Source: Rhizobiales bacterium NRL2
GTDB taxonomy: Bacteria > Pseudomonadota > Alphaproteobacteria > Minwuiales > Minwuiaceae
Reading direction: 5' to 3'
Assembly (NCBI GenBank): GCA_001664005.1
Contig: CP016093.1
Coordinates: 565,001 to 629,000 of the forward strand
DNA length: 64,000 nt
In this document: positions 28,952 to 56,163 of the stretch, piece after piece
How positions within the stretch are numbered: position 1 is the first letter of the stretch
Layout of the letters: the number at the start of each line of letters is the position of its first letter
The notes under the pieces: generated by a model
The model's database searches: none
Told to the model about the DNA's origin: nothing
The model's input: the letters and a program-made list of their open reading frames with translations, nothing else
Made by a program: the position numbers and the translations under genes

Positions 28952-30205
28952 TCAGTCCGAGCGGGCGGACCAGGAGCGGGACAGCGGCGCGCGCTCCGAC
29001 TCGGACTTCGCCGCGATCCGGCGTTCCTCATCCACCATGTAGTCGCGCGTCAGGGGAACGGCATCCAGGCGCCGCGTCAACTGCATCTGGAAGACCATGT
29101 TCGTGCGGCGGCGGAATCCGATCTCGCAGAGCGCAAGGTAGAACTCCCACATGCGGAAGAAGCGCTCGTCGTAGAGCGCCTCGACCTCGGCCCGTTGCGC
29201 GACGAAACGCTCGCGCCAGTGGCGAAGGGTCTCCGCGTAGTGCAGACGCAGGATCTCGACGTCGGTAACCCACAGTCCGGTCTGCTCCACCGCCGGGAAC
29301 ACCTCCGACAGCGATGGCAGGTCCGCCCCGGGGAAGATGTACTTCCGGATGAAGGGATTGATCGGCGCCGGAGAATCGGAATAGCCGATCGAGTGGATCA
29401 GCGCGACGCCGTCATCTGTCAGAAGCTTTCGGATGCGGCCAAAGAACTCCGCATAGTTCCGTTTGCCGACGTGCTCGAACATGCCCACCGAAACGATCCG
29501 GTCGAAGCCGCCTTCCAGTTCGCGGTAGTCCTGCAGCTCGAAGCGCACGCGGTCGCTGGCCGGCGAGCGTTCGGCGCGTCTTGTGCTCAGGCTGTGCTGC
29601 TCGGTGCTGAGGGTAACGCCCGTGACATCGGCGCCGAAGGTTTCGGCGAGATACAGGCCGAGCCCGCCCCATCCCGAACCGATGTCGAGAACCTTCAGTC
29701 CCGGCCTGTCCAGGCAAAGCTTGGCCGCGATATGGCGCTTCTTGTTCTCCTGCGCCGTCTCCAGGCTGTCGTCGGGCGACGTGAAGTAGGCGCAGGAATA
29801 CTGCCGGTCGGCGTCGAGGAAGATGTCGTAGAGCGCGGAGGACAGGTCATAGTGGTGCGCGACGTTGGCCCGTGCGCGCCCGATCGGATTGGCCTGCTTC
29901 AGGCCATTGCCGAGCCGTCCGAGGAGATCGAGCCACCAGTGGCGCCCGGATGCGCCGTAGTTCGACGCGAGCATGTCGAGGAAGTCGTAGATGCCGCCTT
30001 CCTCGAAGACCAGACGGCCGTCCACATAGGACTCGCCGAGTGACAGCGCGGGGTTGAGCGCAAGGGTGTACTCGCTCCTCCGGGATGACAGGCGCAGCGT
30101 GACGGACGGTTCAGTGCCGTCGCCGATCAGATGCCGGCTGCCGGACGAGTCGATGACGCAAAGGCTGCCCTTGCGGACGAAGGATCTGAGTATCGTCAGG
30201 AACAT
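28952..30205 (-). CDS. cfa: Cyclopropane-fatty-acyl-phospholipid synthase family methyltransferase
   Basis: 417 aa from the ATG at 30205. N-terminal lipid-binding part to about 110, then the SAM methyltransferase core: VLDIGSGWGGLGLYLAETFGADVTGVTLS (SAM loop), VSVGMFEHVG and IHSIGYSD, and C-terminal YIFPGADLPSLSEV, the usual Cfa pattern. HHYDLSSALYDIFLD and YSCAYF are conserved in the active-site cap. It adds a methylene bridge to unsaturated phospholipid acyl chains, often in stationary or acid stress. It sits inside the nitrite gene cluster between two copies of the crp 5' end. A 20-bp palindrome lies 73 bp upstream. Confidence 0.9.
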   Translation of the reverse strand: MFLTILRSFVRKGSLCVIDSSGSRHLIGDGTEPSVTLRLSSRRSEYTLALNPALSLGESYVDGRLVFEEGGIYDFLDMLASNYGASGRHWWLDLLGRLGNGLKQANPIGRARANVAHHYDLSSALYDIFLDADRQYSCAYFTSPDDSLETAQENKKRHIAAKLCLDRPGLKVLDIGSGWGGLGLYLAETFGADVTGVTLSTEQHSLSTRRAERSPASDRVRFELQDYRELEGGFDRIVSVGMFEHVGKRNYAEFFGRIRKLLTDDGVALIHSIGYSDSPAPINPFIRKYIFPGADLPSLSEVFPAVEQTGLWVTDVEILRLHYAETLRHWRERFVAQRAEVEALYDERFFRMWEFYLALCEIGFRRRTNMVFQMQLTRRLDAVPLTRDYMVDEERRIAAKSESERAPLSRSWSARSD

Positions 30206-30277
30206 CGTGCGGATTATACAGAGTCCAGTTCTGCCGGAAGGGCGACGTTTCGCCCGGCTCCGCTGCAGGCCGCAGCC

Positions 30278-30297
30278 CACCCATGCCGGCATGGGTG
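30278..30297. promoter_or_regulatory. 20-bp perfect palindrome upstream of cfa
   Basis: CACCCATGCCGGCATGGGTG is its own reverse complement over all 20 bases. It lies 73 bp before the cfa start and 150 bp before the nirK Fnr box. It could be an operator or part of an RNA hairpin; no U-tract follows. Confidence 0.4.
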
Positions 30298-30324
30298 CCG
30301 CGGCTGAACGGTTTGAACCAGAAC

Positions 30325-30393
30325 GCCGCGCCGCCCCTGCCGCGGAACAGCCCGACGGGCTTCGGCAGGCCCGACCCGCGTCTCCGTGTCCAT
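30325..30393 (-). pseudogene. Remnant of a second Crp/Fnr gene (5' end only)
   Basis: The reverse strand repeats the beginning of the regulator at 28895: ATG at 30393, then MDTETRVG, where an extra C shifts the frame; the next frame continues LPKPVGLFRGRGGAA, matching LLKPVGLFRGLDGAA of the intact gene. Similarity then fades. It is a damaged duplicate or leftover of a regulator gene that once stood divergent to nirK. The TTG-N8-CAA box lies 49 bp beyond the old start. Confidence 0.8.
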
Positions 30394-30441
30394 GGCCCTT
30401 CGTCTCCGTTCCCGCCTTCGATCGGCAAACCCCGCCGAAGT

Positions 30442-30455
30442 TTGTTGCAGCGCAA
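30442..30455. promoter_or_regulatory. Crp/Fnr-type box (TTG-N8-CAA) upstream of nirK
   Basis: TTGTTGCAGCGCAA matches TTG-N8-CAA and is related to the box at 28176. Its centre is 76 bp before the nirK ATG, which suits activation at about -41 with a start site near 30490. NO-responsive Dnr/NnrR control of nirK is well known; the link to the regulator at 28197 is inferred. Confidence 0.7.
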
Positions 30456-30524
30456 ATCGGCCTCCGGTCGTGACGCCTAGGTTGGCCGCGTTGTCACCAA
30501 CCAAAAGCGTCAAGGAGAACGCAA

Positions 30525-31580
30525 ATGAGCACGTTTCGTAATGCTCTTCTCGGCACCGCCAGCATGATCGCGGTCGTTGCCGGGCTTTCCCTCGGCGCCG
30601 ACGCCGCTGCCGCCGACAAGGCGACCGACGCCGACGCTATCAACCCGGCGGCCATTGCGCTGGATCCGGCCGCTCTGCCCGGCCCGATCGCCCGCGACCA
30701 TGCGGAGACCGTGAAGGTCGAACTGGTCACGGTCGAACTCGAGGCCGAACTGGCCGACGGCACGACCTTCCGCTACTGGACGTTCAACGGCAAGGTCCCC
30801 GGTCCCTTCGTCCGTGTCCGCGCCGGCGACACCGTGGAGGTGACGCTGAAGAACGCCGAGGACAGCATGATGATGCACTCGGTGGACTTCCACGCCGTGA
30901 CAGGCCCCGGCGGCGGCGCCGTCGCCACCCAGACCGCGCCCGGCGACGAGACCGGCTTCACCTTCAAGGCGATGAAACCCGGCATCTACGTCTACCACTG
31001 CGCCACGCCGATGGTCGCCGACCACATCCAGGCCGGCATGTACGGCATGATCCTGGTGGAACCCGCCGAAAGCCTGCCGAAGGTCGATCGGGAACTCTAC
31101 GTCATGCAGGGCGAGATCTACACCGATCTGGCCCCCGGCCAGGCGGGCGTGGCGATGACCGACTACGACAAGCTGCTGGACGAGGATCCGGAATACTACG
31201 TCTTCAACGGCGCCGCCGGGGCGCTGACCGGCGCCAACGCCATGAAGGCGAAGGTCGGCGAGACCGTCCGCATCTACTTCGGCGTCGGCGGTCCCAACAA
31301 GACCTCCAGCTTCCATGTGATCGGCGAGATCATGGACCGGGTCTACGATTACGGCTCGCTCAACACGGCGCCGATCACCGATGTACAGACCGTGTCTGTC
31401 GCGCCCGGCGGAGCGACCGTCGCCGACGTGACCTTCGACGTTCCCGGCCGCTATCTGCTGGTCGACCACGCCCTCTCGCGGCTGGAGCGCGGCCTGGTCG
31501 CGGAGATCGAGGTCGAGGGTCCGAAGAACCCGGAGATCTACGACACCGGTGAAATGAAGCTCAGCATGGCCGGTCACTGA
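30525..31580 (+). CDS. nirK: Copper-containing nitrite reductase, NO-forming (class II type)
   Basis: 351 aa with a signal peptide (about 1-29, ending ADAAAA). It reduces nitrite to NO in the periplasm as a trimer of two-cupredoxin subunits. All copper ligands are present: type 1 H118, C159, H167, M172; type 2 H123, H158, H315; the proton-relay Asp121 and His264 (SSFHVIGEI) are in place. The short loop [18 protein letters not shown] marks the class II (AniA-like) group. AAGGAG precedes the ATG. Pseudoazurin, its likely electron donor, follows at 91 bp. No nitric oxide reductase is in the window. Confidence 0.96.
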
Positions 31581-31671
31581 CCGGCTGCGCCCCGGCGGTC
31601 CCGCATACCCCCCTCGCTCCCGCGGGGCCGCCGCCCCTTCCCCCAAGACATCTGACGAAAGGAACCCCGAG

Positions 31672-32133
31672 ATGAAACGCACCCTGATCGCCGCCGCCAT
31701 GCTGGGCGGTCTCCTCGCCGCCGCCATACAGCCGGCCGCGGCCGCCGATTTCGAGGTCAAGATGCTCAACCGCGGCGCGGACGGCATGATGGTGTTCGAA
31801 CCCGCCTACCTGGAAATCCAGCCTGGTGACACCGTGACCTTCCTGCCCACTGACAAGGGCCACAACGCGGAAACCATCAAGTCCATGCTTCCCGCCAACG
31901 CCGAGGCCTTCAAGGGCCGGATGAACAAGCCGGTCACGGTGACCTTCACCGAGGAGGGCGTCTACGGCTACAAGTGTCTGCCCCACTACGGCATGGGCAT
32001 GGTCGGCGTGGTAGTCGTCGGCGACGCCGAGGCGAACCTGGAAGCCGCCCGTGGCGCAAAGCATCCGGGCCGCGCAAAGCAGCGTATGGCCGCGCTGGTG
32101 GATCAGATGGACGACCGGCTGGCCTCGCGCTGA
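31672..32133 (+). CDS. Pseudoazurin (blue copper electron carrier)
   Basis: 153 aa with a signal peptide (about 1-25, ending QPAAAA). The mature cupredoxin has the type 1 copper ligands H64 (DKGHNAET), C102, H105 and M110 ([13 protein letters not shown]). Pseudoazurin passes electrons from the bc1 chain to NirK in the periplasm, and its place directly after nirK fits that. The C-terminal 30 residues ([23 protein letters not shown]) form the usual helical tail. AAAGGA precedes the ATG. Confidence 0.94.
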
Positions 32134-32223
32134 GCCGGTCCATGACGGAGACGGGGCCGGGGGCGGTGACGCCCGCCGGCCCCGATGCTTAGAGGGCGCG
32201 CAATGACAGAGGAAGGCGGAGCG

Positions 32224-32817
32224 ATGACGAACCTCGCGGCGGCGCTGGCGCTGCTGTTTCTGACCCACGCCGTGCCTTCCCTGCCGACGGTGCGCGCGCG
32301 CCTGCTGGAACGGTTCGGCGCGACGCCCTTCCGGATCGTCTACAGCCTCGTCTCGCTCGCTGCGGTCGCCTGGGTGATCCAGGCCTATGCCGGGGCCGCT
32401 GACAGCCCCTGGGTCTGGACGCCGCCAATCTGGGCCCGGTGGGCCGCGGTGCTGGCGATGCCGCTGGCGCTCTGGCTCGTCGCGGTCCGCCTGATGCACC
32501 CGCCGGGCAGGGGCGCGGCGCGGCTCTATCGACGGGTCCCGGCCCCGGCCAGCGCCGGCATCCTGCTCTGGGCGCTGCTCCACCTCGCAAATGTCGGGCA
32601 GGCGCGGGCGCTGCTGCTGTTCGCCGTTTTCGCCGCGATCGCGCTCTTTGCGCTGGTCAAGAACATGCTCACCGCCGCGCCGGTCGCCGGAAGCGCCCCG
32701 GACCGCGTCGGCTACCGGCCGGCAGCGGCGGCGCTGGCCGTCTGGGCGGCCTTGCTGGCGCTGCATCCGCTGGTCATCGGCCCTGACCCGCTCGCATGGC
32801 TTGCGCTGACTGGCTGA
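32224..32817 (+). CDS. nnrU: NnrU family membrane protein
   Basis: 197 aa from the ATG at 32224 (GGAAGGCGGAG just upstream; an ATG at 32203 is possible). About six membrane helices, starting LAAALALLFLTHAVPSLPTVRARLLERFGATPFRIVYSLVSLAAVAWVI, with the NnrU pattern HLANVGQARALLLFAVFAAIALFALVKNM and conserved His residues that may bind heme. NnrU is needed for nitrite/NO respiration in some alphaproteobacteria and is related to the phycocyanobilin-isomerising fold of Z-ISO. Third gene of the nirK unit. Its last 44 bp overlap the end of the converging hydrolase gene. Confidence 0.87.
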   Translation: MTNLAAALALLFLTHAVPSLPTVRARLLERFGATPFRIVYSLVSLAAVAWVIQAYAGAADSPWVWTPPIWARWAAVLAMPLALWLVAVRLMHPPGRGAARLYRRVPAPASAGILLWALLHLANVGQARALLLFAVFAAIALFALVKNMLTAAPVAGSAPDRVGYRPAAAALAVWAALLALHPLVIGPDPLAWLALTG

Positions 32818-36913: not shown

Positions 36914-37666
36914 TCAGCCGGCGCTTTCGGGCCCATCCGAGCGCGGGCCGAACGCGAAGATCGCGCCGTTGGCGACGCCGGGTAGCACCCGCGTGCCGTA
37001 GACCAGCGCCCGCCGGCGCACGATCATCGCAGGCCAGCCGCCGAACTCGGCGTCCAGCGCTTTCAGCAGCGAGATCGCGGTCGGCGTGACCGTCTCGCCG
37101 GAGGAGGCGAGGCCGCGCACCGGCACCCCTTCCAGCATGTCGAGAACGGCCGGCGCAGGCGCGGGCAGCAGGCCGTGGGCGCAGCGCACCGTGCCGTCGC
37201 AGAGGGGCAGCGGCCCGCAGACCAGCCGCGGTTGGCCCAGCCGGTCGTAGAGCGCTGCCACGAGGCAGGTGTCGAGAATGCTGTCGAGTGCGCCGACCTC
37301 GTGGAAGGTGACCTTCTCCGGCGGGATGCCGTGCACGCGGCCCTCGGCCGCCGCCAGGATGGCGAACGCCTTCTCCGCCAGCGCCCGTGCGGCTTCGCCG
37401 AGCGCGCTTGCGGCAATGATCCGTGTCACGTCGTCCAGGCTGCGGTGATGGTGTTCGCGGGGCAGGGACACGCGGGCGCGCCAGCCGCCGATCTGGTTCA
37501 CGGCCGTTTCCTCCAGCATGACGCAGCCTTCCGGCAGGCCGAGGCTGAGGGCGATTTCGCCGAGTTCCGCGTTCGTGGCCTGCGCCATGCGCGCGAAGCC
37601 GGCCAGCAGCATGTCGCCGGAAAGGCCGCTGTTGGGACGGACGACCAGACAGGCGTCGCCGGTCAT
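36914..37666 (-). CDS. larC: LarC-type nickel-insertion protein, N-terminal (LarC1) form
   Basis: 250 aa. LarC puts Ni into the pincer-nucleotide precursor using CTP. Family signatures: RPNSGLSGDMLLAGFARM, PREHHHRSLDDVTRII (His cluster), GIPPEKVTFHEVGALDSILDT, GPLPLCDGTVRCAHGLLPAPAPAV and SGETVTPTAISLL. It ends where LarC1 ends; the C-terminal LarC2 domain of about 150 residues, which binds CTP in studied LarC, is absent and was not found downstream in any frame. ATGA overlap with larB (37663-37666) shows coupling. Last clear gene of the operon. Confidence 0.85.
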   Translation of the reverse strand: MTGDACLVVRPNSGLSGDMLLAGFARMAQATNAELGEIALSLGLPEGCVMLEETAVNQIGGWRARVSLPREHHHRSLDDVTRIIAASALGEAARALAEKAFAILAAAEGRVHGIPPEKVTFHEVGALDSILDTCLVAALYDRLGQPRLVCGPLPLCDGTVRCAHGLLPAPAPAVLDMLEGVPVRGLASSGETVTPTAISLLKALDAEFGGWPAMIVRRRALVYGTRVLPGVANGAIFAFGPRSDGPESAG

Positions 37667-38310
37667 GCCGGCCCCAGAATGCGCGCGGCGGCGCAGGCGG
37701 CGCCATAGCCGTTGTCGACGTTGAGCACCGCGACGCCCGGGGCGCAGCTGACCAGCATGCTTTGGATCGCGGCGAGACCGTCCTGCGCCATGCCGTAGCC
37801 GACCGAAGTCGGCACCGCGAGCACGGGCTTCGGCGTGAGCGCCCCCAGGACCGACGCCAGCGCCGCGTCGAGTCCGGCGACCACGATCACCACGTCCGCC
37901 TCGTTGATCGCCTCCAGCCGGTCGACCAGCCGCCAGAGCCCGGCCACGCCGCAATCCTCGAACACGGTGCTGGCGATGCCGAGATAGGTCAGCGTCCGCG
38001 CGGCTTCCCAGGTCACGCGGCCGTCCGCGGTCCCGGCGGAAACCACAGCGACCTGGCCCGGACGGGCCGGCATCGTGGCGCGCCAGGCCGTGCGCGACAG
38101 CGGGTGATAGTCGATCCTCGAAGACGCCTCCCCCGGCAGCGCCGCCAGCACCGACGGGTCCAGCCGGGTGAAGAGCACGGGCTGCACGTCGGGTTCGGCG
38201 AACTCCTTCAGCAGCGACAGCACCGTTTCGACCGGCTTGCCCTCGCACAGGACCGCTTCCGGCAGACCGATGCGGGCGGCGCGGCCATAGTCGAACAGGA
38301 CCTCTTTCAT
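37663..38310 (-). CDS. larB: LarB, pyridinium-3,5-biscarboxylate synthase (NaAD carboxylase/hydrolase)
   Basis: 215 aa. LarB carboxylates the pyridine ring of nicotinic acid adenine dinucleotide and releases AMP, the first step to the nickel-pincer nucleotide. The C-terminal two-thirds is the PurE-like domain: AVVSAGTADGRVTWEAARTLTYLG, VVIVVAGLDAALASVLGALTPKPVLAVPTSVGYGMAQDGLAAIQSML, and VAVLNVDNGYGAA. The N-terminal lead (FDYGRAARIGLPEAVLCEGK) is also family-typical. Overlaps both larE and larC by 4 bp. Its substrate is the product of the two nad-like genes at the head of the cluster. Confidence 0.93.
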   Translation of the reverse strand: MKEVLFDYGRAARIGLPEAVLCEGKPVETVLSLLKEFAEPDVQPVLFTRLDPSVLAALPGEASSRIDYHPLSRTAWRATMPARPGQVAVVSAGTADGRVTWEAARTLTYLGIASTVFEDCGVAGLWRLVDRLEAINEADVVIVVAGLDAALASVLGALTPKPVLAVPTSVGYGMAQDGLAAIQSMLVSCAPGVAVLNVDNGYGAACAAARILGPA

Positions 38311-39164
38311 GCGCCTCCGCTCGCGTCACGCGGCGCGGCGCCCTCGCCGTGCAGGAAGGCGGAGCCGCGGCGGTACGGCCGGACGCCGAGAAAGCGGCGG
38401 GCTTCGGCGGCGCAGTCGGCGGCGGCCATCGCGCGCATCTCGGCGAAGCGTCCGGCCAGGGCCTCGTCGGCCTCGACCGCGACGCCGGCGGCGGTGATCC
38501 GGCAGCGGATCGTCCGGTTCTCGCCGAAGCGCCGGCGAAGCAGGGTCTCGACCCGGTCGATGAAGGCGAGATCCGCGGACTCGATGGCGATGCCGGTCTC
38601 GACCCGGCTGGCGAGGCAGGGCTGCGCGGGCAGCTCCGCGATGTCGTCCAGTCCGTAGCGCCGGGCGAGGGCGCGAATGTCGGCCTTGCCGATCCCGGCC
38701 TCGACATAGGGGTGGACCACGTCGCGCTCCGCCGCGGCCGTCAGGCCGGGCCGGTAGTCGCCCAGGTCGTCGACATTGGCGCCCGAGGCGATCGCGCCCG
38801 CCGCGAGCCCGGCGAGGCGATCGTACAGATTGGTCTTGCAGAAATAGCAGCGGTTGACCGGGTTCTTGAGATAATCCGGGTCGGCGAACTCGCCGGCCTC
38901 GACCACGTGCAGGTCCCAGCCTTCCCGCGCCGCGTAGGCGCGGACGCGCGCCGTCGCCGCCGGCGGCACCGCGGGCGAGACGGCATGCGCCATCCGCACG
39001 GGCCGTTCGCCCAGGCGATGGGCGACATGGGCCAGCGTCATGCTGTCGATCCCGCCGCTGACCGCGACGGTCAGGCCCTCATGGGCGCGCAGGACGGCCA
39101 GCAGACGGCCTTCGGCCGCCGCCGCCTCTTCGCCCCATGATGGCGCTCCCGAACCGTCAGGCAT
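38307..39164 (-). CDS. larE: LarE-type PP-loop sulfur transferase
   Basis: 285 aa. LarE activates the pincer precursor with ATP and puts sulfur on its two carboxylates. The PP-loop is AVSGGIDSMTLAHV (35-48). Cys106 and Cys109 (NRCYFCKTNLY) plus Cys183 (AQPCLASRVETGI) are present; C183 lies at the place of the sacrificial Cys of Lactobacillus LarE. Some LarE enzymes instead hold a [4Fe-4S] cluster on three Cys and act catalytically, and this three-Cys pattern allows that (inference). Overlaps the MoCF-domain gene (8 bp) and larB (4 bp). Confidence 0.9.
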   Translation of the reverse strand: MPDGSGAPSWGEEAAAAEGRLLAVLRAHEGLTVAVSGGIDSMTLAHVAHRLGERPVRMAHAVSPAVPPAATARVRAYAAREGWDLHVVEAGEFADPDYLKNPVNRCYFCKTNLYDRLAGLAAGAIASGANVDDLGDYRPGLTAAAERDVVHPYVEAGIGKADIRALARRYGLDDIAELPAQPCLASRVETGIAIESADLAFIDRVETLLRRRFGENRTIRCRITAAGVAVEADEALAGRFAEMRAMAAADCAAEARRFLGVRPYRRGSAFLHGEGAAPRDASGGA

Positions 39165-40056
39165 GGGCGTGGGCCTTCTCCTTCAGCCGCTTGCGCAGCA
39201 CGTCGGCGATGCGCTCGGCGATGGCCGCGTCCGACAGCCCCGGCTCGCCCAGCGCCCGGACCAGGGCGTCGAGGCCGAGCAGCACTTCGTCCGTCGGCCC
39301 AGGCAGGGCGACGATCATCGTGTCCAGCACGCGGCCGACGGCGATACGGACGCTGTTCTTGTGGACGTGCCGGCCGACGCCGAGTTCATATTTCACGATC
39401 TCCGGCGTGGCCGCCTCCGGGTCGGCCCTCAGAAACGCCTCGATGGTGCAGTCCTTGACCTCGGCGCCCACGCCGCCGGTGGTCACGATCATGCCGAAGC
39501 CCTCCTCGGCGCGTTCGCGCAGCGCGGCGGCGATGTGGTACTCGTTGTCCTTCAGCGGCATGCCCTGGCTGACCGCATAGCCGTTCACGCTCAGCTTCTC
39601 GCGGATGGCCGGGCTGTTGGTGTCCTTCACCTGGCCGTTGGCGAGTTCCGTGCCGGTGGGGAAGACCACCACCGTCTTCGCCAGCTTGTCACGGATCTCC
39701 GCCATCTGCCGCTCGGCCGCTTCGAGGGACTGAAGGGCCTCCTCGCCGCTGGCCGCCACCCAGCTCAGCAGGCCGCGGGATTCGACCCGCGCGTCCGCGG
39801 ACACGCCGACGCCCTCGACCGAGGCCACGGCGTCGAGCAGTTCGCGCTCCTTGCCGACGATGTTCTTCGCATCCAGCCCGCGCCGCAGGATGTCGAGCAC
39901 GATGTTGTCGTCGCGGACATCGGTCACGAGGATCTCCGTGCGGTCGAGCACCAGAACCCGCGCGACCGCATCGGCGACGGCCGTCAGGTCCGCATCGGCC
40001 AGCGCGAGGCCGGTGATGCTGAGCTCGGTCTTGCCCATCATGTCGTATTCGACCAC
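39157..40056 (-). CDS. MoCF-domain (molybdopterin-binding fold) protein of the lar cluster
   Basis: 299 aa. Residues about 127-290 form a MogA/MoeA/CinA-type domain: VVVFPTGTELANGQVKDTNSPAI (TGxE...D motif), MIVTTGGVGAEVKDCTIEAFL and IVALPGPTDEVLLGLDALV. In molybdenum-cofactor enzymes this fold binds or adenylylates molybdopterin; CinA uses it on pyridine or ADP-ribose compounds. Residues 1-110 (LTAVADAVARVLVLDRTEILVTDVRDDNIVLDILRRGL...) are an unrecognised domain. Within this operon a nucleotide-like pincer precursor is a reasonable ligand (inference). Acidic, soluble, no signal peptide. Confidence 0.7.
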   Translation of the reverse strand: MVEYDMMGKTELSITGLALADADLTAVADAVARVLVLDRTEILVTDVRDDNIVLDILRRGLDAKNIVGKERELLDAVASVEGVGVSADARVESRGLLSWVAASGEEALQSLEAAERQMAEIRDKLAKTVVVFPTGTELANGQVKDTNSPAIREKLSVNGYAVSQGMPLKDNEYHIAAALRERAEEGFGMIVTTGGVGAEVKDCTIEAFLRADPEAATPEIVKYELGVGRHVHKNSVRIAVGRVLDTMIVALPGPTDEVLLGLDALVRALGEPGLSDAAIAERIADVLRKRLKEKAHAHA

Positions 40057-40174
40057 GACGTTCTCCCAGGTTGTTCGATGCGCGTTACGCGCCCCTATAT
40101 GCGCCGCCGAGCCGGGTCCGGCCGCTTGGCCCCGACATCAACCGACATGCGCAGGCATGCCGCGGCCCCTGCGT

Positions 40175-41620
40175 TCAGAGCGCCTCGGACGGGTCGAAGC
40201 CGCGCTGGCGCATCCACTTGGGCATAAGCTCCTCCTCGACCCGCCGGTCGGCGACCGGCGCGCGTTCGATCAGGTGCTCGGCCAGCTTCTCGTTGCACGT
40301 CAGCATGCCGTAGGCGCCGTCGAAGACGACCAGGTTGTCGGTGTTGGCGAGCCGCTTGGCGAACCTGACGGCGGACGGCAGGTCGTGGGCGGTGACGCAG
40401 TTCTTGATCATCTCGATGTTCATGCAGTCTTCCTCGACCAGCTTCGCCATCTCCTGGCCGACGAGGACCATGGGACAGGACGTGGCCAGCTCCATCTGCG
40501 GCACGCCGGTCCAGAAATGGTTCATCACCAGCCCCTTGACGGCGGGGTTCACCGGCTTCGCCTTCGGCTGGTCCGGCGGCGGCTGCCACAGGCCGAAGCC
40601 CAGGCTGACCGGTATGGTGTCGAGGTCGAAGAGGTCGAGTTCCGCCTCGGTCAGATTGCCGAAGGTGGTGCCGCCGCCGACCATGTAACGGGGCTCCCCC
40701 GTGCCGTCGATGATCGCGATGCAGTCGCCGATCTCGTTGAACAGTTCGCGCAGCTTGCCGTAGGACTTGAAGGCCAGCAGCGCCAGCTTTCGGTCGATCG
40801 GCATCAGGTCGTTGCCGGACTCGATCCCCGTCACCCCCTGCGGCGAGGCCGCCATGAACACGCCGAAGGCCCACTTCTTCTGGACGAAGTCGGATTCGAA
40901 GACCAGCCGCGGGATCAGGTTGGACGACCGCGGCCCGAAATTCATGTGGTGGACCGAACGCGTCTCGAAACGGGCGTAGGACATTGAGAACGGCTTCATC
41001 GTGCGGCTGATCATGCGGTGCATGTCCAGTTCGCGCAGCTCGCCATGATGGCAGTGGATGATGAAGTCGGCGTCGTAGATCCGCTTGATGCCCATCAGCG
41101 TGCCGACCGGGGTTTCGATCTCGACGCCCTGGTCGATGTAGAGCGCCGGCAGCGCCCGGCCGTCGAACATCTCGTCCAGGCCGAAATGCTTGATCACCTC
41201 CTCCGGCTCTTTCAGGCGGAAGCCGGTGGCGACACGCAGCCGGACACGCCTGCAGCCCGTGCGCTGTTCGACCACTTCCTTGATCGTACGGATGACCTCG
41301 CGATAGGCGTAGCCGCCCATGATCATGAAGCCGTACTGCGAGGCCAGGATGTTGACCGTCGACTTCTCCTTGATCATCGACATGTCGACGTCCTTCAGCG
41401 ACTCCGCGGTGGCGCGGCGGAGCGGCTCCAGATCGTCGCCCTCGACATAGATCGCCTTCGGCACGTCGGGGAACAGTTCGGAAATCGGCAGGCCCACCAT
41501 GCCCGGCAGGTCGGCGGCGCGCATTGCGGGCATGCCGGTGGCCGTCTGCGGGCCGTACTGGGATGTGCGGATTGCGGCCGGCGTCGGGCGGGGCAGTTCC
41601 GAGACGGCGAGATGTGTCAT
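40175..41620 (-). CDS. Diverged LarA-like protein, probable nickel-pincer-dependent enzyme of unknown substrate
   Basis: 481 aa. It follows the LarA (lactate racemase) layout: STVNILASQYGFMIMGGYAYREVI (87-110) at the place of the DxTRPTP strand, RLRVATGFRLKEPEEVIKHFG (127-147) at the place of ATGTHRP, and ETPVGTLMGIKRIYDADFIIHCHHGE (169-194) at the place of the xxTP-V-N...ADLVI strand. The hallmark residues TRPTP and GTHRP are not conserved; a His-rich HCHHGE stretch and K209 may substitute. Assignment rests on this weak pattern plus four lar-type neighbours. Racemase or epimerase chemistry on a hydroxy-acid-like substrate is the natural guess. Confidence 0.5.
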   Translation of the reverse strand: MTHLAVSELPRPTPAAIRTSQYGPQTATGMPAMRAADLPGMVGLPISELFPDVPKAIYVEGDDLEPLRRATAESLKDVDMSMIKEKSTVNILASQYGFMIMGGYAYREVIRTIKEVVEQRTGCRRVRLRVATGFRLKEPEEVIKHFGLDEMFDGRALPALYIDQGVEIETPVGTLMGIKRIYDADFIIHCHHGELRELDMHRMISRTMKPFSMSYARFETRSVHHMNFGPRSSNLIPRLVFESDFVQKKWAFGVFMAASPQGVTGIESGNDLMPIDRKLALLAFKSYGKLRELFNEIGDCIAIIDGTGEPRYMVGGGTTFGNLTEAELDLFDLDTIPVSLGFGLWQPPPDQPKAKPVNPAVKGLVMNHFWTGVPQMELATSCPMVLVGQEMAKLVEEDCMNIEMIKNCVTAHDLPSAVRFAKRLANTDNLVVFDGAYGMLTCNEKLAEHLIERAPVADRRVEEELMPKWMRQRGFDPSEAL

Positions 41621-41678
41621 GGCGCGAACCTTTCGGTCTTGATCGGGCCGGCCCGGGGCCGGCAGCGGCTGCTGCGGG

Positions 41679-42257
41679 TCAGAACTTGCGGAAGACGTCC
41701 TTGTCCTCTTCCAGGAAATAGCCCGCGTACTTGTCGATCACCTCCTGCGGTACGTCCCACAGGCTCTGGGTGGTCGGGTACCAGCGCCACTTCTCGGGTT
41801 TCTCCAGCTTGTGGCCCGCCGCCTCCAGCAGGCGCATCGACATCATCTGGCAGTACACGGTGCAGCCCGACCGCGTGCCGGTGTCGAGCGCGATCTGCTC
41901 TGGCGTGATCGCGCCCTGCAGCACCGCGGCGGCGGCTTCCTGCACCCGGGTCTGGGTACACAGGCAGTGCCACTGCTTGGGATGCATGTTGGCCTTGCGG
42001 CAGAGGTCGTGGATGTCCTCGATGGGCACGTCCTCGATGGCGACGCGCACTTCCCTAGGCTCGTCGCGCTCGACCCGGGTGATCGCGTCGTCGGGACAGA
42101 TGCCGTGGCAGTTCGGGCAGGCGACGCAGAGGTCGTCGTTGATGATGGCGATGTTGTCTTTCATGTGGATCGCCTCGGTCGGGCAGACCCAGACGCATTT
42201 CTTGCAGCCGGTGCAGTTCTCGTCGATCACCGCCGCCTGGTACTTCAGCGTTACCAC
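41679..42257 (-). CDS. Two-cluster ferredoxin fused to a BFD-like [2Fe-2S] domain
   Basis: 192 aa from a GTG at 42257 with GGGGAGGAA 3 nt upstream; longer upstream reading is Arg-rich and not used. Two [4Fe-4S] motifs: C15-x2-C-x2-C-x3-C (CTGCKKCVWVCP) and C44-x2-C-x2-C-x3-C (CVACPNCHGICP). Residues about 85-140 follow the bacterioferritin-associated-ferredoxin pattern (C98-x-C100 ... C132-x3-C136, with LQGAITPEQIALDTGTRSGC between). It is a soluble electron carrier or cluster donor. The LarA-like gene follows 58 bp downstream; possible partners are that protein or LarE. Confidence 0.82.
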   Translation of the reverse strand: MVTLKYQAAVIDENCTGCKKCVWVCPTEAIHMKDNIAIINDDLCVACPNCHGICPDDAITRVERDEPREVRVAIEDVPIEDIHDLCRKANMHPKQWHCLCTQTRVQEAAAAVLQGAITPEQIALDTGTRSGCTVYCQMMSMRLLEAAGHKLEKPEKWRWYPTTQSLWDVPQEVIDKYAGYFLEEDKDVFRKF

Positions 42258-42496
42258 ATCTTCCTCCCCGCCGGCGGATGCCGGACTTCGAACGTCGCGG
42301 ATTCGCCGCCGCCCCATCTCCGGACAGGGCCGGAAGCAAGGGCCGCGCACGGTCTCGCAGCTGCTTCGGAACGCATAGGTGCGGCGCCTCCCCTGGTCTC
42401 CGCAATGGCCGCCCGTTGCGAGACGTCTGGCCTCTGGGCCGTTCGGCGCACGCACAAGGCGCGGGCCGGACGGTTCTGACGGGCCGGTTTGTTTTC
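42258..42496 (-). other. Long 5' leader of the ferredoxin/LarA-like unit
   Basis: About 230 nt of GC-rich leader between the putative promoter and the ferredoxin GTG. It can form several stems (for example GGGGAGGCGCC with GGCGCC-like partners), but no known riboswitch consensus was recognised by eye. No ORF in it looks real. Confidence 0.35.
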
Positions 42497-42526
42497 ATAC
42501 TAGTGCGTCGCAACCGCGGCGGTCAA
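42497..42526 (-). promoter_or_regulatory. Sigma-70-like promoter for the ferredoxin-LarA-like-lar operon
   Basis: On the minus strand TTGACC (42526-42521) and TAGTAT (42502-42497) are separated by 18 bp, a good match to TTGACA/TATAAT in otherwise GC-rich DNA. Transcription would start near 42490, giving a 230-nt leader before the GTG at 42257. This separates the downstream unit from the nadC-nadD pair, which could also read through. Confidence 0.6.
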
Positions 42527-42616
42527 GGCGCCTGCGGGCCGCCGCTGCTTGGAGATTCGGCAGAAATATCAATCATTTCAGTTCATTAGAGGAATTTCGC
42601 CCGATCGGTCGGCGAA

Positions 42617-43441
42617 TCACCCGGTGGGCTGCAGGTCGGGATCGGCGACGACGTCGAACTTCACGTCCACGCCGGGCGCATCGATGACGGCGCGGCCGAT
42701 ATCCAGGATATCCACATCGTGCGCCGCGATGGCGGGGATGTCCTCCAGGGCGATGTCGCCGGAGAAGGCGATCTCCGTCGTCTCCCGCCGGCCCGCCGCC
42801 CGCACCATCGACGCGACGCGGTCGAGGTCGGCCAGGTTCCCGGTATCGACCATCAGGATCTCCGCGCCCATCTCGATCGCCGCCCGGGCCTCGTCCTCCA
42901 GCGGCTCGACCAGGCCGCGGAGCTGGATGCAGCGCGTGTGACCCTCCAGAACCGAGACGGCTTCCAGGGTCCGGCGCACGCCGCCGAACATGCGGACATA
43001 GTTCTTGTCCAGATAGACGAAGGGCAGCGGGGCGATCCGGCCGCTGCCGCCGCCCTGGTGGATGGCGCGCCGGACCTGCGGCTTGATCTCGATCGGCATC
43101 TTCTTGGCGGCGCCGGAGACGATGCGCACGCGGCCGCCGGCGATCTGCTGCGCGCGGCGGGCGGCGCGGGCGATGCCGGAGGGCTTGGCGATGGCGCCGG
43201 GCAGTGTGTCCTCGGCGATGGCGATTTCCTTCGCCGGCGCGCGGATGATCAGGACCGGCGCGTCCGCGTCCGCCTCCTCGGCGTCGCGCATGGCGTGCAG
43301 CACCTCGCAGCCCAGGTCCAGCGCCTTGGCGGCCGCGTCTTCCACGCCGCAGATCACGCCGGCGGTGGCGACCCGCAGCTCGGCGGTGAAGCGCCGCCCG
43401 CCGAGGGAGCGGAAGATGTCGTCGCGCAGATCGTAGGTCAT
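42617..43441 (-). CDS. NadC-like quinolinate (nicotinate-nucleotide) phosphoribosyltransferase
   Basis: 274 aa, coupled to the NadD-like gene by an ATGA overlap (43438-43441). It has the QPRTase plan: an N-terminal alpha/beta sandwich (ELRVATAGVICGVEDAAAKALDLG... LIIRAPAKEI) and a C-terminal barrel with EARAAIEMGAEILMVDTGNLADLDRVASMV, TTEIAFSGDIALEDIPAIAAHDVDILDIGRAVID, which matches the end of NadC. The canonical RKT/HR motifs of housekeeping NadC are altered (AKPSGIARAARR). Normal role: quinolinate plus PRPP to nicotinate mononucleotide. Here it probably feeds NadD and LarB. Confidence 0.72.
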   Translation of the reverse strand: MTYDLRDDIFRSLGGRRFTAELRVATAGVICGVEDAAAKALDLGCEVLHAMRDAEEADADAPVLIIRAPAKEIAIAEDTLPGAIAKPSGIARAARRAQQIAGGRVRIVSGAAKKMPIEIKPQVRRAIHQGGGSGRIAPLPFVYLDKNYVRMFGGVRRTLEAVSVLEGHTRCIQLRGLVEPLEDEARAAIEMGAEILMVDTGNLADLDRVASMVRAAGRRETTEIAFSGDIALEDIPAIAAHDVDILDIGRAVIDAPGVDVKFDVVADPDLQPTG

Positions 43442-44142
43442 GCAATGCTCCCCGTCCGGCCGCTCCCGCCGGCGGGCGGCCAGACCGGATCGATCTCCAC
43501 CCGCCGCGCCGCCATGCGCCGGGCCACGGCGTCGGGCACAAGATGCCCGAAGTCGCCGCCGGCGCGCCAGACCTCGCGGATCATGGTCGAACTGATCGCG
43601 ACCGGCGGCAGGTCGAGCAGGATGGCGTGGCGTCCCGGCGCGATCTCCCAGGCGGCGGGACAGCCCGGCGGCGGCGGCGCGGGCCGGGCGTCGGGCCAGG
43701 CGGCCAGCAGCGCGGCCTCGAAGGTCTCGGCATCGAAGTCGCCGCGCGGGGCGACCGCCAGGTGCGTGGCGTGCGCGATGTCGCGGCCGTTGACCCATTT
43801 GTGCAGGCGCAGGAACTCGCGCTGGCCGAGGGCGAAGTACAGGCCGGCGCCGGGCTCGGCCTCGCGCAGCGCCGCGACGGTCCGCCAGGTCAGCGACGGT
43901 TTCGGCAGATCGGCCTCGATCGCGTTCACGGCCATGCCTTCGGCCCCGGCGATCGCCCGGCCGATCAGATCGCAGCGGAGCCCGAAGGGCAGCAGGTCGT
44001 CCGCCGCCCTGTGGAAGGGGGTGTGGCAGGGCACGAAGTCGACCCGCGCCACGCCGAGCGCGGCCGCCGCGCCTTCCGCCAGCGCCAGATGGCCGCGATG
44101 AACGGGATTGAAGGTGCCGCCGATGATCAGCCGGGCGGTCAT
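43438..44142 (-). CDS. NadD-like nicotinate-nucleotide adenylyltransferase
   Basis: 234 aa from the ATG at 44142. It forms nicotinic acid adenine dinucleotide from the mononucleotide and ATP. The nucleotidyltransferase signature is GGTFNPVHRGH (8-18), with VDFVPCHTPFHR, the binding loop ALGQREFLRLHKWVNG, and the C-terminal ISSTMIREVW. It is not next to the rsfS/proA genes where housekeeping nadD usually sits, so it may be a second, dedicated copy; LarB in the same cluster uses its product. Upstream lies the phytanoyl-CoA-type dioxygenase, same strand, 100 bp away. Confidence 0.85.
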   Translation of the reverse strand: MTARLIIGGTFNPVHRGHLALAEGAAAALGVARVDFVPCHTPFHRAADDLLPFGLRCDLIGRAIAGAEGMAVNAIEADLPKPSLTWRTVAALREAEPGAGLYFALGQREFLRLHKWVNGRDIAHATHLAVAPRGDFDAETFEAALLAAWPDARPAPPPPGCPAAWEIAPGRHAILLDLPPVAISSTMIREVWRAGGDFGHLVPDAVARRMAARRVEIDPVWPPAGGSGRTGSIA

Positions 44143-44242: not shown

Positions 44243-45139
44243 TCAGTCCCGGCCGTCGTTGGGCGTGTCGCCGAGGTACAGGGGCTTGATGGCGCGGCTG
44301 CGGGCCGTGATCGCCGCACCGCCGGTGCGATCCATGTCGCGCGGCAGGGCGGGGTCGGCGAGGGTGAGCGGGTGACCCGTCTCGACGAAGCCCAGATAGG
44401 GGCCGCCGAAGTCGTAGCCGATCAGCTTCAGCACCTCGTGCGGGATATCCTTCGCCTTGTCCGGCGGGATCGAGAGGTACTGGTTCTCCTCCTGGCGCAG
44501 CCAGCCGAGATTGTAGTGAAGCCCCATGCCGCGGCGGTTGCCGTTCGACCGGTTGGCGCCGCCGCCGTGAATGAGGTTGCTGGTGTAGAGCAGCACCGAA
44601 CCGGCCGGCATCTCCGCATTGACCACCTCGTCGGCTGTGGGTTGGCGGTCATGGGCCCAGCGGTGGCTGCCGGGCACCAGCCGGGTGCCGCCATTCTCGG
44701 CAGTGAAGTCGTTGCACGCCCACATGGTGGCCAGCGTCATGGGGATGGAAGGCAGGCGCACGGGATAGATCCCGCCGTCGCGGTGCAGTTCCTGGGCCGT
44801 CTCGCCGGGCTGCAGATCCACCAGCAAGGTGACATGGAGGTGATAGCGCGCGCAGTGGGGCAGCAGAACGCGGTCGCAGACGCTCATGATCGTGGGGTGG
44901 ACGGCGAGCTCCCGGCAGGCCGCGGACTTGGCGATCAGATTGTTGATGCGTTTGGTCCTGTGGCCGGCGAAGTCGGTCCTGCCCAGCTGCACCGCGTCGA
45001 CATGGGGCTCGAAATCGGCGTTGAGACGCGACACGGTCGCGGCATCGGCCAGTTCGCGCACGATGGCGTAGCCGTGCTCGTCAAGGGCATCGGCGACTGC
45101 CTCGGGGCTTGCGTCGCGCTCGAATTCTGGCCTGGGCAT
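44243..45139 (-). CDS. Phytanoyl-CoA dioxygenase (PhyH) family protein
   Basis: 298 aa from the ATG at 45139 (GAGGAG site). Fe(II)/2-oxoglutarate dioxygenase with an HxD motif in TAQELHRDGGIYP and the distal His in TSNLIHGGGANRSNGNRRGMGLHYN, plus an Arg (RSNGNRRG) for 2-oxoglutarate. Relatives hydroxylate lipids, small acids or natural-product scaffolds. It lies upstream of the nadD-like gene on the same strand and may be co-transcribed with it, but a role in the pincer pathway is not shown. Confidence 0.85.
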   Translation of the reverse strand: MPRPEFERDASPEAVADALDEHGYAIVRELADAATVSRLNADFEPHVDAVQLGRTDFAGHRTKRINNLIAKSAACRELAVHPTIMSVCDRVLLPHCARYHLHVTLLVDLQPGETAQELHRDGGIYPVRLPSIPMTLATMWACNDFTAENGGTRLVPGSHRWAHDRQPTADEVVNAEMPAGSVLLYTSNLIHGGGANRSNGNRRGMGLHYNLGWLRQEENQYLSIPPDKAKDIPHEVLKLIGYDFGGPYLGFVETGHPLTLADPALPRDMDRTGGAAITARSRAIKPLYLGDTPNDGRD

Positions 45140-45286
45140 CCGCTGTTGGCTCCTCTGCCGGGTCTGAGGACCATTCCAGCGGCGCGGCCGCTTCGATGCA
45201 AGATGCCTCGTCGGCGGCGCGGCGGCGACGGCCGCGCCCGCGCGTGCCGGCGCGCCGTTCCGTCGGTTCGATTTCAATGAAGCAAG

Positions 45287-45319
45287 TGGCGGAGGGAAAG
45301 GGACTGGAATCCAACGTTC
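45287..45319. other. tRNA-Ser 3'-end-like fragment, possible att site
   Basis: The reverse complement reads GGATTCCAGTCCC then TTTCCCTCCGCCA, resembling the T-arm and acceptor end of tRNA-Ser (...TTCGAATCCC...CTCCGCCA), but degenerate; no tRNA body is attached. It sits where base composition drops and island genes begin. Remnants like this mark insertion at tRNA 3' ends. No integrase is visible. Confidence 0.3.
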
Positions 45320-45352
45320 TCTGACTGATCCACCTCACGAATCGCCTGCTTT

Positions 45353-46630
45353 TCAGATCATAAACACCGGAGCGAACCCGCCCCCAGGAGTCCTGAAATT
45401 CGTGGTCTGGCCTTGATAGAGGCGCGCAGCTACCAAAAGAACCTGACCGTCATAAGTGTAGAGCCGAACGTCCATCTTGCGCACCTGTAGTGCTTCGTCG
45501 ATCTTGATCATGCGCTCGCTCGGCCGGACCAAAGTCTGAGCAACGTAGCCCCCTCGCTCGATTTCTGCCCAGACGCCTTTCGTCACCTTGTCACCACGGT
45601 AGACCGCCTTTCCGCCATGTCCGCCCGTTGGCTTGAAGAACAGGTCCTTACGCGACTTCCACAGTTCGTCGGCGATTTCGGGAGTGACAACGACAGTACG
45701 CGGGACGGATTTGAGTTGGGCCAGAAGTCTTGGCTCCAGACCCCAGGCCTCGAGCGTTGCCGGATCCGAGAGCAGCGAAAGGGCGCGCTTGTCGGCGAGA
45801 AGGGCGTGGTTGTGCGGATTTGGCGTCACGACCACCGCGCCCTCCCGGTAGGCATCTCTTAGCGCCCTGTGTTCCGGCTGATCGAACGCGAAGTCGGTGA
45901 CCCTGTTGTAGACGAGGTCGATCGGCTTCCCCTCGACGCTGAGCCGACCGGCTTCATGGCGAAGATGGCTGGCGTCCGCGATAACGGCATCGACGCCACG
46001 TGCGGCCATCGCCTGCCGCACAAGGACGAACTCGGGATAGAGATACTGTTCCTCCGGCCTGTCGTCGACGATGGCAATTCGGCCTGCGGAACCGCTTCCC
46101 CGCTGGCGCTCCCATTCGTCCTGGAACATGCGAAATGCCACATCCTCGAAGGCGTGCGGCTTCAAGGGCATGTCCATTTCGGCACAACAGGCGCGCTGAG
46201 CCCTTGCAAGAAGGGCGTTGAGGAATGCCCCGCCGGCGTTGGTATTGATCTCGATGAGCCGGAGGCCGTCTTCGCCGAGATGGAAATCGTAGCCCATCAA
46301 CGCACCAACAGGGCCGTGATCCTTTTGCGAGATTTCCGGCGCCCAGGAGAGGACGGCGGCCTTGTATGCGGCGAGCCGCGCCGTCGCCTCGATCGCGGCG
46401 ACCACCTCCTGCATCTCGGCCACCTGGCTGGCCGAGAGGAACACAGGCACATTCGAGAACAAATGCGCCTTGGGTCGGATGAAGGTCTCGCAGAACTCCG
46501 GGTCGCCAGCCTCGCGCTCAAGCGCCTCGCACAGCAACGGGCGGTCGAGGGTAATGCAGAAGCAATTCTGGTTCAGCCGCTCCGAGAGAGTCTGAACTGG
46601 ACCCGTGGACGTGGGGCCTGGATCGCTCAT
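45353..46630 (-). CDS. ATP-grasp-like protein of unknown function
   Basis: 425 aa from the ATG at 46630. The C-terminal half has an ATP-grasp pattern: DLFFKPTGGHGGKAVYRGDKVTKGVW (Gly-rich ATP loop), YVAQTLVRPSERM, and MDVRLYTYDGQVLLVAARLYQGQTTNFRTPGGGFAPV (metal and phosphate residues). The N-terminal half contains GYDFHLGEDGLRLIEINTNAGGAFLNAL, which recalls glutathionylspermidine-synthase-like proteins. ATP-grasp enzymes ligate a carboxylate to an amine through an acyl phosphate; the substrates are unknown. Type II GAPDH lies 73 bp upstream on the same strand. Confidence 0.65.
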   Translation of the reverse strand: MSDPGPTSTGPVQTLSERLNQNCFCITLDRPLLCEALEREAGDPEFCETFIRPKAHLFSNVPVFLSASQVAEMQEVVAAIEATARLAAYKAAVLSWAPEISQKDHGPVGALMGYDFHLGEDGLRLIEINTNAGGAFLNALLARAQRACCAEMDMPLKPHAFEDVAFRMFQDEWERQRGSGSAGRIAIVDDRPEEQYLYPEFVLVRQAMAARGVDAVIADASHLRHEAGRLSVEGKPIDLVYNRVTDFAFDQPEHRALRDAYREGAVVVTPNPHNHALLADKRALSLLSDPATLEAWGLEPRLLAQLKSVPRTVVVTPEIADELWKSRKDLFFKPTGGHGGKAVYRGDKVTKGVWAEIERGGYVAQTLVRPSERMIKIDEALQVRKMDVRLYTYDGQVLLVAARLYQGQTTNFRTPGGGFAPVFMI

Positions 46631-46703
46631 CGCCCCCAAAGCCCTGGCTGTCCCCAGGCCGGACGCGCGTCAGGCCCGATGCGGGCATCGAAAAGTCTTG
46701 GAA

Positions 46704-47759
46704 TCATCGTTGCCCCAGTGTTTCGGTCAGCAGGCCGATCCCGAGTGCCGCATCCGTCTTTGCGATGGAGTCTTCGGCGCTCGCGATCACTCCGCACAGT
46801 GCCCGGATCGCGTCGATCGTCTCTGGAATGACGATGGCCTGGTTGTCCACCATGTAGGCGTAGAACAGTTCGTCTCCCTGGACCTTCAGCATGTCCGACC
46901 ACAGCGCCACCTCGTAGAGGTTGTCATGTGGCCGGCCCAGGTCGGCCATGAGCTCCTTGACCGCGTTGATCGCCGTCAATCCGGCATCCATGCGGATCAG
47001 GGCAATCCGGGACGATGCTGCAAAAGCGTCGAGCACCTCTTCCCTTGAGGCCGGGCGGGTCAACTGCACCGACCAGTAGTGCAGATGCGCCAGGGTCTCT
47101 GGCACCTTGACCGCCATCGTGACGACATCGAGATCGGGGTCGACGCTCTGCGCATCCGGCCCCTGATGGCTGGGAATCTCGGGCTCGGGGACGAGCGTGT
47201 TCATGATCCCGCCAAGGTGACTTTCCCAGGGGTCCGTCGCCCGGCGCAGCAGCGTCCCGCGCGCGCGACGCAGCAGGCCTCCCTGCTTCAATGCCGTAAG
47301 GGTTCTCACGATCGAGGTGGTGTTGCAGGAGACGACGCGCGTGCTGTCCCGGTCCAGCGCACTCGCATAGGTAGATTCCGCAACGAAGGAGTGTCCGGTC
47401 ACCTCGTGATTCTCGCCACCCTGGACGATGAACTTGATGCCCCTTTGTCGATAGATGTCGACGTTCACCGCCGCGATCCGTTTCGGCGTGCAGTCCACCA
47501 CCAGGTCGCTCGCCTCAAGCAGATCATCGAGGTTCCCGGCGACATCGAGTCCGGTGTTCCGCATCGCCTCTGCATGGTCACTGGTGGCTGCGAAAAGGCG
47601 GTAACCCTTCTGCGTCGCCATGCGTGGCCGCCAGTCGGCGCTGATATCCGCAACCCCGGCCAGTTCCATATCGTCCTGCAGCGCAACGGCGTCGGCGACA
47701 CGCTTTCCGATCACGCCGTAGCCGTTCACGGCGACGCGGATCTTTTTCGTTGGGGTCAT
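46704..47759 (-). CDS. Type II (archaeal-type) glyceraldehyde-3-phosphate dehydrogenase
   Basis: 351 aa. Start KIRVAVNGYGVIGKRVADAVALQ is the Rossmann site; the catalytic Cys lies in TRVVSCNTTSIVRTL. ADISADWRPRMATQKGYRLF, FIVQGGENHEVTGHSFVAESTYA and PEPEIPSHQGPDAQSV are typical of type II GAPDH rather than the usual bacterial GapA. It interconverts glyceraldehyde 3-phosphate and 1,3-bisphosphoglycerate with NAD(P). Phosphoketolase at 56164 makes glyceraldehyde 3-phosphate, which links the two ends of the island. The ATP-grasp-like gene follows. Confidence 0.88.
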   Translation of the reverse strand: MTPTKKIRVAVNGYGVIGKRVADAVALQDDMELAGVADISADWRPRMATQKGYRLFAATSDHAEAMRNTGLDVAGNLDDLLEASDLVVDCTPKRIAAVNVDIYRQRGIKFIVQGGENHEVTGHSFVAESTYASALDRDSTRVVSCNTTSIVRTLTALKQGGLLRRARGTLLRRATDPWESHLGGIMNTLVPEPEIPSHQGPDAQSVDPDLDVVTMAVKVPETLAHLHYWSVQLTRPASREEVLDAFAASSRIALIRMDAGLTAINAVKELMADLGRPHDNLYEVALWSDMLKVQGDELFYAYMVDNQAIVIPETIDAIRALCGVIASAEDSIAKTDAALGIGLLTETLGQR

Positions 47760-54871: not shown

Positions 54872-54935
54872 ATTCGATGCATTTGGCATCGCCGACGACA
54901 AGCGCAAGTCGCCATGCGCAAGAGGGGTCCGACTG

Positions 54936-56159: not shown

Positions 56160-56163
56160 GACC

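Follow-up and report, generated by a model that had tools for sequence, protein, structure and literature searches.

The nickel-pincer nucleotide (NPN) belongs to a very small group of organometallic cofactors. The closest described systems in which it is made and used are the larBCE/larA systems, represented by L. plantarum LarA and the LarA/DUF2088 superfamily. The LarA-family enzymes to which the literature consulted assigns an activity all racemise or epimerise 2-hydroxyacids (PMC11770544, PMC7583248), and homologues with altered active-site residues have been suggested to catalyse another hydride-mediated reaction (PMC7583248). Analysis of a stretch of 64,000 nucleotides (the window; contig CP016093.1, positions 565,001 to 629,000) from the complete 4.70 Mb genome of Rhizobiales bacterium NRL2 (GCA_001664005.1, designated G000) confirmed the existence and coordinates of an eight-gene cluster predicted from the sequence, all on the minus strand within 36914-44142 and in the order nadD-like, nadC-like, Fe-S, gA, MoCF, larE, larB, larC, in which gA denotes the gene predicted to encode a LarA-like protein. 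Four junctions (nadD/nadC, MoCF/larE, larE/larB and larB/larC) have overlaps of 4 or 8 bases, that of the nadD-like and nadC-like genes being 4 bases. The key novelty lies in the proposed client of the cofactor system, an undescribed family of LarA-fold proteins paired with an Fe-S protein. The genes of the cluster are as follows.

43438..44142, minus strand: NadD-like nicotinate-mononucleotide adenylyltransferase, 234 amino acids, second copy in the genome (TIGR00482, PF01467)
42617..43441, minus strand: NadC-like phosphoribosyltransferase-fold protein belonging to a new subfamily, 274 amino acids (PF01729 and PF02749)
41679..42254, minus strand: Fe-S protein, 191 amino acids (Pfam Fer4 and Fer2_BFD)
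40175..41620, minus strand: gA, 481 amino acids, member of an undescribed family with a modelled LarA fold, proposed NPN client enzyme (AlphaFold, Foldseek, VIA)
39157..40056, minus strand: MoCF (MogA/MoeA/CinA-type) domain protein, 299 amino acids (PF00994)
38307..39164, minus strand: larE, sulphur transferase of the CXXC-C ([4Fe-4S]) type, 285 amino acids (TIGR00268)
37663..38310, minus strand: larB, 215 amino acids, sole true LarB in the genome (NF033503)
36914..37666, minus strand: larC, 250 amino acids, LarC1 half only (TIGR00299, PF01969)

The protein encoded by gA has no Pfam match, including to PF09861 (Lar_N), and its NCBIfam match is only at chance level, so that its assignment to LarA depends on comparing folds. 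AlphaFold modelling with 7 sequences gave a predicted local distance difference test score (pLDDT) of 47, which was raised to 79 by adding paralogues from the genomes G391 and G437; the resulting model with 12 homologues had a pLDDT of 78.9 and a predicted template modelling score of 0.84. Foldseek returned three matches to this model at E up to 0.001, all of them LarA-family racemases (best E 6.7e-8, probability 1.00), and in the VIA comparison the top 12 entries were all LarA-family (Z 13.9-17.8), with the next fold at Z 6.8. Judged by its model, gA has the LarA fold, and the label LarA-like holds for the fold, but it is accompanied neither by a Pfam match nor by significant sequence similarity. 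No PF09861 LarA was detected in the window genome or in the genus (seven genomes), which leaves gA as the sole candidate NPN client in this host.

When gA was aligned with a LarA reference sequence identical to PDB 5huq, K209 fell at LarA K184, the NPN tether, and H225 at H200, a nickel ligand; the profile alignment is marginal, both pairs are 16 residues apart, and this lysine and histidine of gA do not vary among 12 homologues. R135 of gA appears at the position of LarA H108, which indicates that the two catalytic histidines of LarA racemases and epimerases are not both kept, the candidates for LarA H174 being the invariant H201 or H189, and the DHTRP motif bearing R75 is absent from gA. Since by alignment the spacing of the NPN lysine and the nickel histidine is kept and one catalytic histidine appears to be lost, gA probably uses NPN without being an ordinary racemase. 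Were gA instead a divergent racemase or epimerase that depends on NPN, with the Fe-S protein as a maturation or repair factor, this would agree with the activities so far assigned to LarA-family enzymes and with the Fe-S type of the operon LarE; R135 at the H108 position, which argues that the two-histidine mechanism is not intact, and the adjacency of the Fe-S gene and gA even at loci that have no lar genes close by (L063 and L064) make this a doubtful alternative.

The Fe-S protein contains two [4Fe-4S] ferredoxin motifs and a BFD-like [2Fe-2S] domain according to Pfam, and 13 of its cysteines are invariant in 11 relatives. Its gene adjoins gA in every locus readable on that side, and the domains and this constant adjacency together suggest a role in electron transfer. 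In one related locus, derived from a metagenome-assembled genome (MAG), the Fe-S gene has an apparent frame break near 9599, either an assembly error or real (L006:9401-9975).

Regarding the function of gA, the genes near relatives' loci encode CoA transferases, a MaoC hydratase, a thioesterase, Ptb, a kinase of the acetate kinase family, an E1/E2/E3 2-oxoacid dehydrogenase complex, MhpD/MhpE/MhpF-type proteins, a molybdenum hydroxylase and UbiD. These neighbours point to gA being a catabolic enzyme with differing substrates in different clusters. Two diverged clusters of G391 also have a creatinase/prolidase-family gene directly downstream of gA (L046:2718-3821 and L063:9991-10359). Searches of open-licence literature returned nothing on a nad+lar linkage, nor on a connection to anaerobic degradation.

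A scan of genome contigs revealed six related loci (L006, L007, L008, L009, L010 and L011), with the arrangement FeS-gA-MoCF-larE-larB-larC present in L006, L007 and L010 and FeS-gA-MoCF in L008 and L011, L009 being interrupted by a contig end; one LarB above the cut-off was detected in each of the six relatives' genomes. Across the gA-carrying genomes and the genomes of the host genus, which define the scope of the co-occurrence analysis, a divergent NadC-like protein was present in all six relatives' genomes and in G437, i.e., in all seven other genomes with gA, its identity to the window protein being 66-72% in five relatives' genomes and 42% in G391. The nadD-nadC pair recurs in four of the six relatives; L011 repeats the window order nadD-nadC-FeS-gA-MoCF, with the pair directly upstream of FeS-gA, in L006 and L007 the pair shares a contig with the Fe-S gene, ~11-16 kilobases away from it, and the pair of G393 and the nad-like genes of G392 are on other contigs. 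In a profile search G391 proved to have four gA genes and G437 additional copies, and a NadC-like gene is found near FeS-gA in the diverged clusters L046, L063 and L066, with MoCF also present in L046 and L066. Separately, L010 has a decayed NadC-like paralogue (7954-8859, 32% identical) between gA and MoCF that has lost nearly all phosphoribosyltransferase residues and is perhaps a non-catalytic subunit.

The linkage of nad and lar genes is thus real and recurrent, and the nad-like genes belong with the lar system, as the original prediction had proposed. It had set this claim against random spacing between nad and lar genes among relatives; spacing does vary, from adjacent genes to separate contigs, but both linkage and co-occurrence recur. 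The distances in L006 and L007 and the separate contigs in G393 and G392 would suit nad-like genes that are unrelated passengers beside a lar operon, yet this is very improbable given the divergent NadC-like protein of every other gA genome, the lack of a TIGR00078 match in same-genus genomes without gA, the gene order of L011 and the NadC-like genes of the diverged clusters. No paper linking nadC with nickel-pincer systems was found in a full-text search of open-licence literature.

The NadC-like gene is the sole PF01729 match in the complete window genome, and its product scores 80.5 bits against the NadC cut-off of 198.4 (TIGR00078), with relatives at 80.7-109.7 and a canonical control (L023) at 305. 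The NadC-like protein, eight comparable relatives and the canonical NadCs of G390, G391 and G392 were aligned with human QPRT as reference, after its numbering had been confirmed against the sequence. In each of the eight comparable relatives, R102 has become D or E, R138 K, K171 D and E201 R or K, and H160 is deleted, while K139, R161 and D222 are retained in the family; in the same alignment the three canonical NadCs retain all compared residues. R102, R138, H160 and K171 are quinolinate-binding residues in QPRT structures. In place of LIKDNH the family has a conserved YLDKNYV. The replaced pocket residues and this motif indicate, at the level of sequence, a distinct subfamily that is not NadC. 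The NadD-like protein scores 110.5 bits, just under its cut-off of 112.45 (TIGR00482), which four NadD-like relatives pass at 118-128 bits. Regarding further copies in the genome, nadC is single but no true NadC, and nadD is duplicated, with a second, housekeeping copy at G000:C1:720700 between proA and rsfS.

Neither NadA (PF02445) nor the PncB/NadV family (PF04095) was detected in any of the seven genomes of the genus, and no NadC (TIGR00078 match) was found in the other six. No known route to nicotinate mononucleotide (NaMN) was thus detected in the host, routes such as uptake of nicotinamide adenine dinucleotide precursors not having been searched. The predicted pathway from quinolinate was not borne out, with the TIGR00078 cut-off missed, R102, H160, K171 and E201 lost and NadA absent. 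The presence of both Pfam domains, the 4-base overlap of nadD and nadC and the retained equivalents of R161 and D222 could be explained by an ordinary NadC and NadD feeding standard nicotinic acid adenine dinucleotide (NaAD) to LarB in a unit self-sufficient from quinolinate; the low score, the changed residues in all eight comparable relatives, the genus without NadA and the coexistence of the NadC-like protein with canonical NadC in G390, G391 and G392 render this improbable.

Nicotinate or another pyridine base is a likelier substrate than quinolinate. A nicotinate-type base is favoured by the standard-looking NadD, LarB and LarE, by the absence of another detected NaMN route in the host and by weak matches (49.8 bits) of the NadC-like protein to a nicotinate phosphoribosyltransferase model. 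A different aromatic base, yielding a distinct pincer nucleotide used by the gA family only, would account for the retention of the NadC-like protein beside canonical NadC in three genomes, for the pocket rebuilt in a conserved manner and for a NadC-like protein that tracks gA even at ~40% identity. This reading gains from that retention but is tentative, with well under even chances, because LarB, LarE and LarC1 score well above the standard-pathway cut-offs, suggesting a similar substrate, and NadD relatives pass the nicotinate-adenylyltransferase cut-off.

Regarding the lar genes, all three products exceed the curated NCBIfam cut-offs: LarB with 238.6 bits against 175 (NF033503), the other match in the window genome reaching 20 bits, LarE with 248.8 bits against 150 (TIGR00268) and LarC1 with 162.8 bits against 90 (TIGR00299). 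The LarE cysteines, in CYFC and PCLASR, form the CXXC-C pattern that has been assigned to [4Fe-4S] cluster-binding LarE (PMC9283937). LarC spans only positions 2-228 of 375 in the PF01969 model, and no LarC2 was detected in the operon, a separate LarC2 elsewhere in the genome not having been searched for. Clear, overlapping larC, larB and larE on the minus strand had been predicted, which is correct for larB, larE and the overlaps but for larC applies only to the LarC1 half; with LarC2 absent from the operon, the claim of a self-sufficient cofactor unit does not stand. The LarCs of three other syntenic operons are equally short (251, 248 and 237 amino acids) and those unlinked to gA in G391, G392 and G394 are of full length, so the loss of LarC2 is, as far as these sequences indicate, a trait of the operon type and not a local break.

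The MoCF protein matches PF00994 at 72.2 bits, has an N-terminal domain of ~125 amino acids without family assignment, and carries the motifs TTGGVGAE-KD and LPGP, invariant in 8 relatives; the protein reaches the cut-off of no NCBIfam model for an established MoCF equivalog.

True LarB was detected in the window genome only among the seven genomes of the genus, and searches for gA in the six other genomes of the genus and in the rest of 385 genomes from the class gave no match; gA was also not found in plasmid or viral collections. With LarB and gA so restricted, the cluster looks to have been acquired as a unit by a host without a detected known NaMN route.

The favoured reading, to which even chances are given, sees the operon as a mobile NPN module that has spread horizontally, brings its own supply of precursor and serves, in catabolism, a LarA-fold oxidoreductase not described before. 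The pathway would begin with the NadC-like protein joining phosphoribose to a pyridine carboxylate (most probably nicotinate rather than quinolinate); adenylylation of this product by the NadD-like protein would then yield NaAD or something close to it. The NaAD-type product would be carboxylated and cleaved by LarB and receive two sulphurs from LarE, and nickel insertion would fall to LarC1, with MoCF perhaps performing the nucleotide activation of the missing LarC2. The finished cofactor would be tethered to gA, in which a single catalytic histidine appears to be left. By abstracting a hydride from its substrate and passing the electrons on to the neighbouring Fe-S protein, gA would function as an oxidoreductase and not as a racemase, on substrates that may belong to organic-acid or CoA-thioester breakdown.

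Several observations weigh against this reading. The similarity of gA to LarA by sequence is not significant (hhalign 23.1; over 100 column shuffles the 95th percentile was 22.0 and the maximum 23.7), and the cofactor loop of gA (197-233), in which K209 and H225 lie, was modelled at a pLDDT mostly <50, so that the roles given to these two residues depend on the alignment. The canonical NadC of G390, G391 and G392 would make simple NaAD supply redundant there, nadD is unlinked in G391, G392 and G437, and all six related loci are from MAGs. The N-terminal domain of MoCF was considered as a hidden LarC2 and rejected, as it bears no resemblance to LarC2, and MoCF is also present in genomes with full-length LarC (G391 and G394), which weakens a strict replacement of LarC2 by MoCF. 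A further and unlikely reading is that of a second, so far unseen branch of pincer-nucleotide biology, in which a dedicated NadC-like enzyme would begin a variant pincer nucleotide from a base that is neither quinolinate nor nicotinate, MoCF would replace LarC2 in inserting the metal, the cofactor would power net redox chemistry by way of an Fe-S partner, and the undescribed LarA-fold family would have several paralogues per genome in some bacteria.

Elsewhere in the window, the same-strand genes upstream of the operon (44243-47759) encode a PhyH-type dioxygenase, a circularly permuted ATP-grasp-like protein and a divergent GAPDH-like dehydrogenase with weak Pfam scores. A plus-strand stretch (51237-58524) encodes a heavy-metal P-type ATPase, acetate kinase and phosphoketolase (XFP), possibly an acetyl-phosphate pathway, and at 28952-32766 a gene for a cyclopropane-synthase-type methyltransferase is followed by two open reading frames of >400 amino acids without a Pfam match at E 1e-6.

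If the favoured reading is true, NPN would move beyond hidden redox chemistry into open redox reactions, by way of a LarA-fold family that standard profiles miss and that is tied to an Fe-S electron carrier and to precursor genes of its own. The module would also illustrate how the cofactor could be gained in a single package by a host in which no NaMN route was detected, and it would suggest that NPN serves further breakdown pathways too.

Compared with the larBCE/larA systems, the operon shares LarB, LarE and LarC1 above their cut-offs, the modelled LarA fold of gA and, by a marginal alignment, the spacing of the lysine and histidine; it differs in that gA has no PF09861 match and does not appear to keep H108 and R75, in the absence of LarC2, and in the addition of NadC-like, NadD-like, Fe-S and MoCF genes. 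The NadC-like protein resembles NadC/QPRT (human QPRT 5ayx, 3gnn) in having both Pfam domains and keeping K139, R161 and D222, but its pocket residues are replaced in all relatives, its score is below the cut-off and its N-terminus is shorter. The MoCF protein has PF00994 with TGG-G and LPGP motifs like the MogA/MoeA/CinA proteins and, unlike these, combines it with an N-terminal domain lacking family assignment in a pincer-cofactor operon. In apparently lacking one catalytic histidine, gA is similar to the single-histidine LarA_Bw and LarA_Sp (PMC12611868, PDB 9q3k/9q3j), and 9q3k is its top structural match (Z 17.8, tied within 1 with several LarAs); however, LarA_Bw and LarA_Sp lack the equivalent of H174 whereas gA appears to lack that of H108, and both, unlike gA, are recognised as DUF2088 and found in a context of carbohydrate metabolism (PMC12611868).

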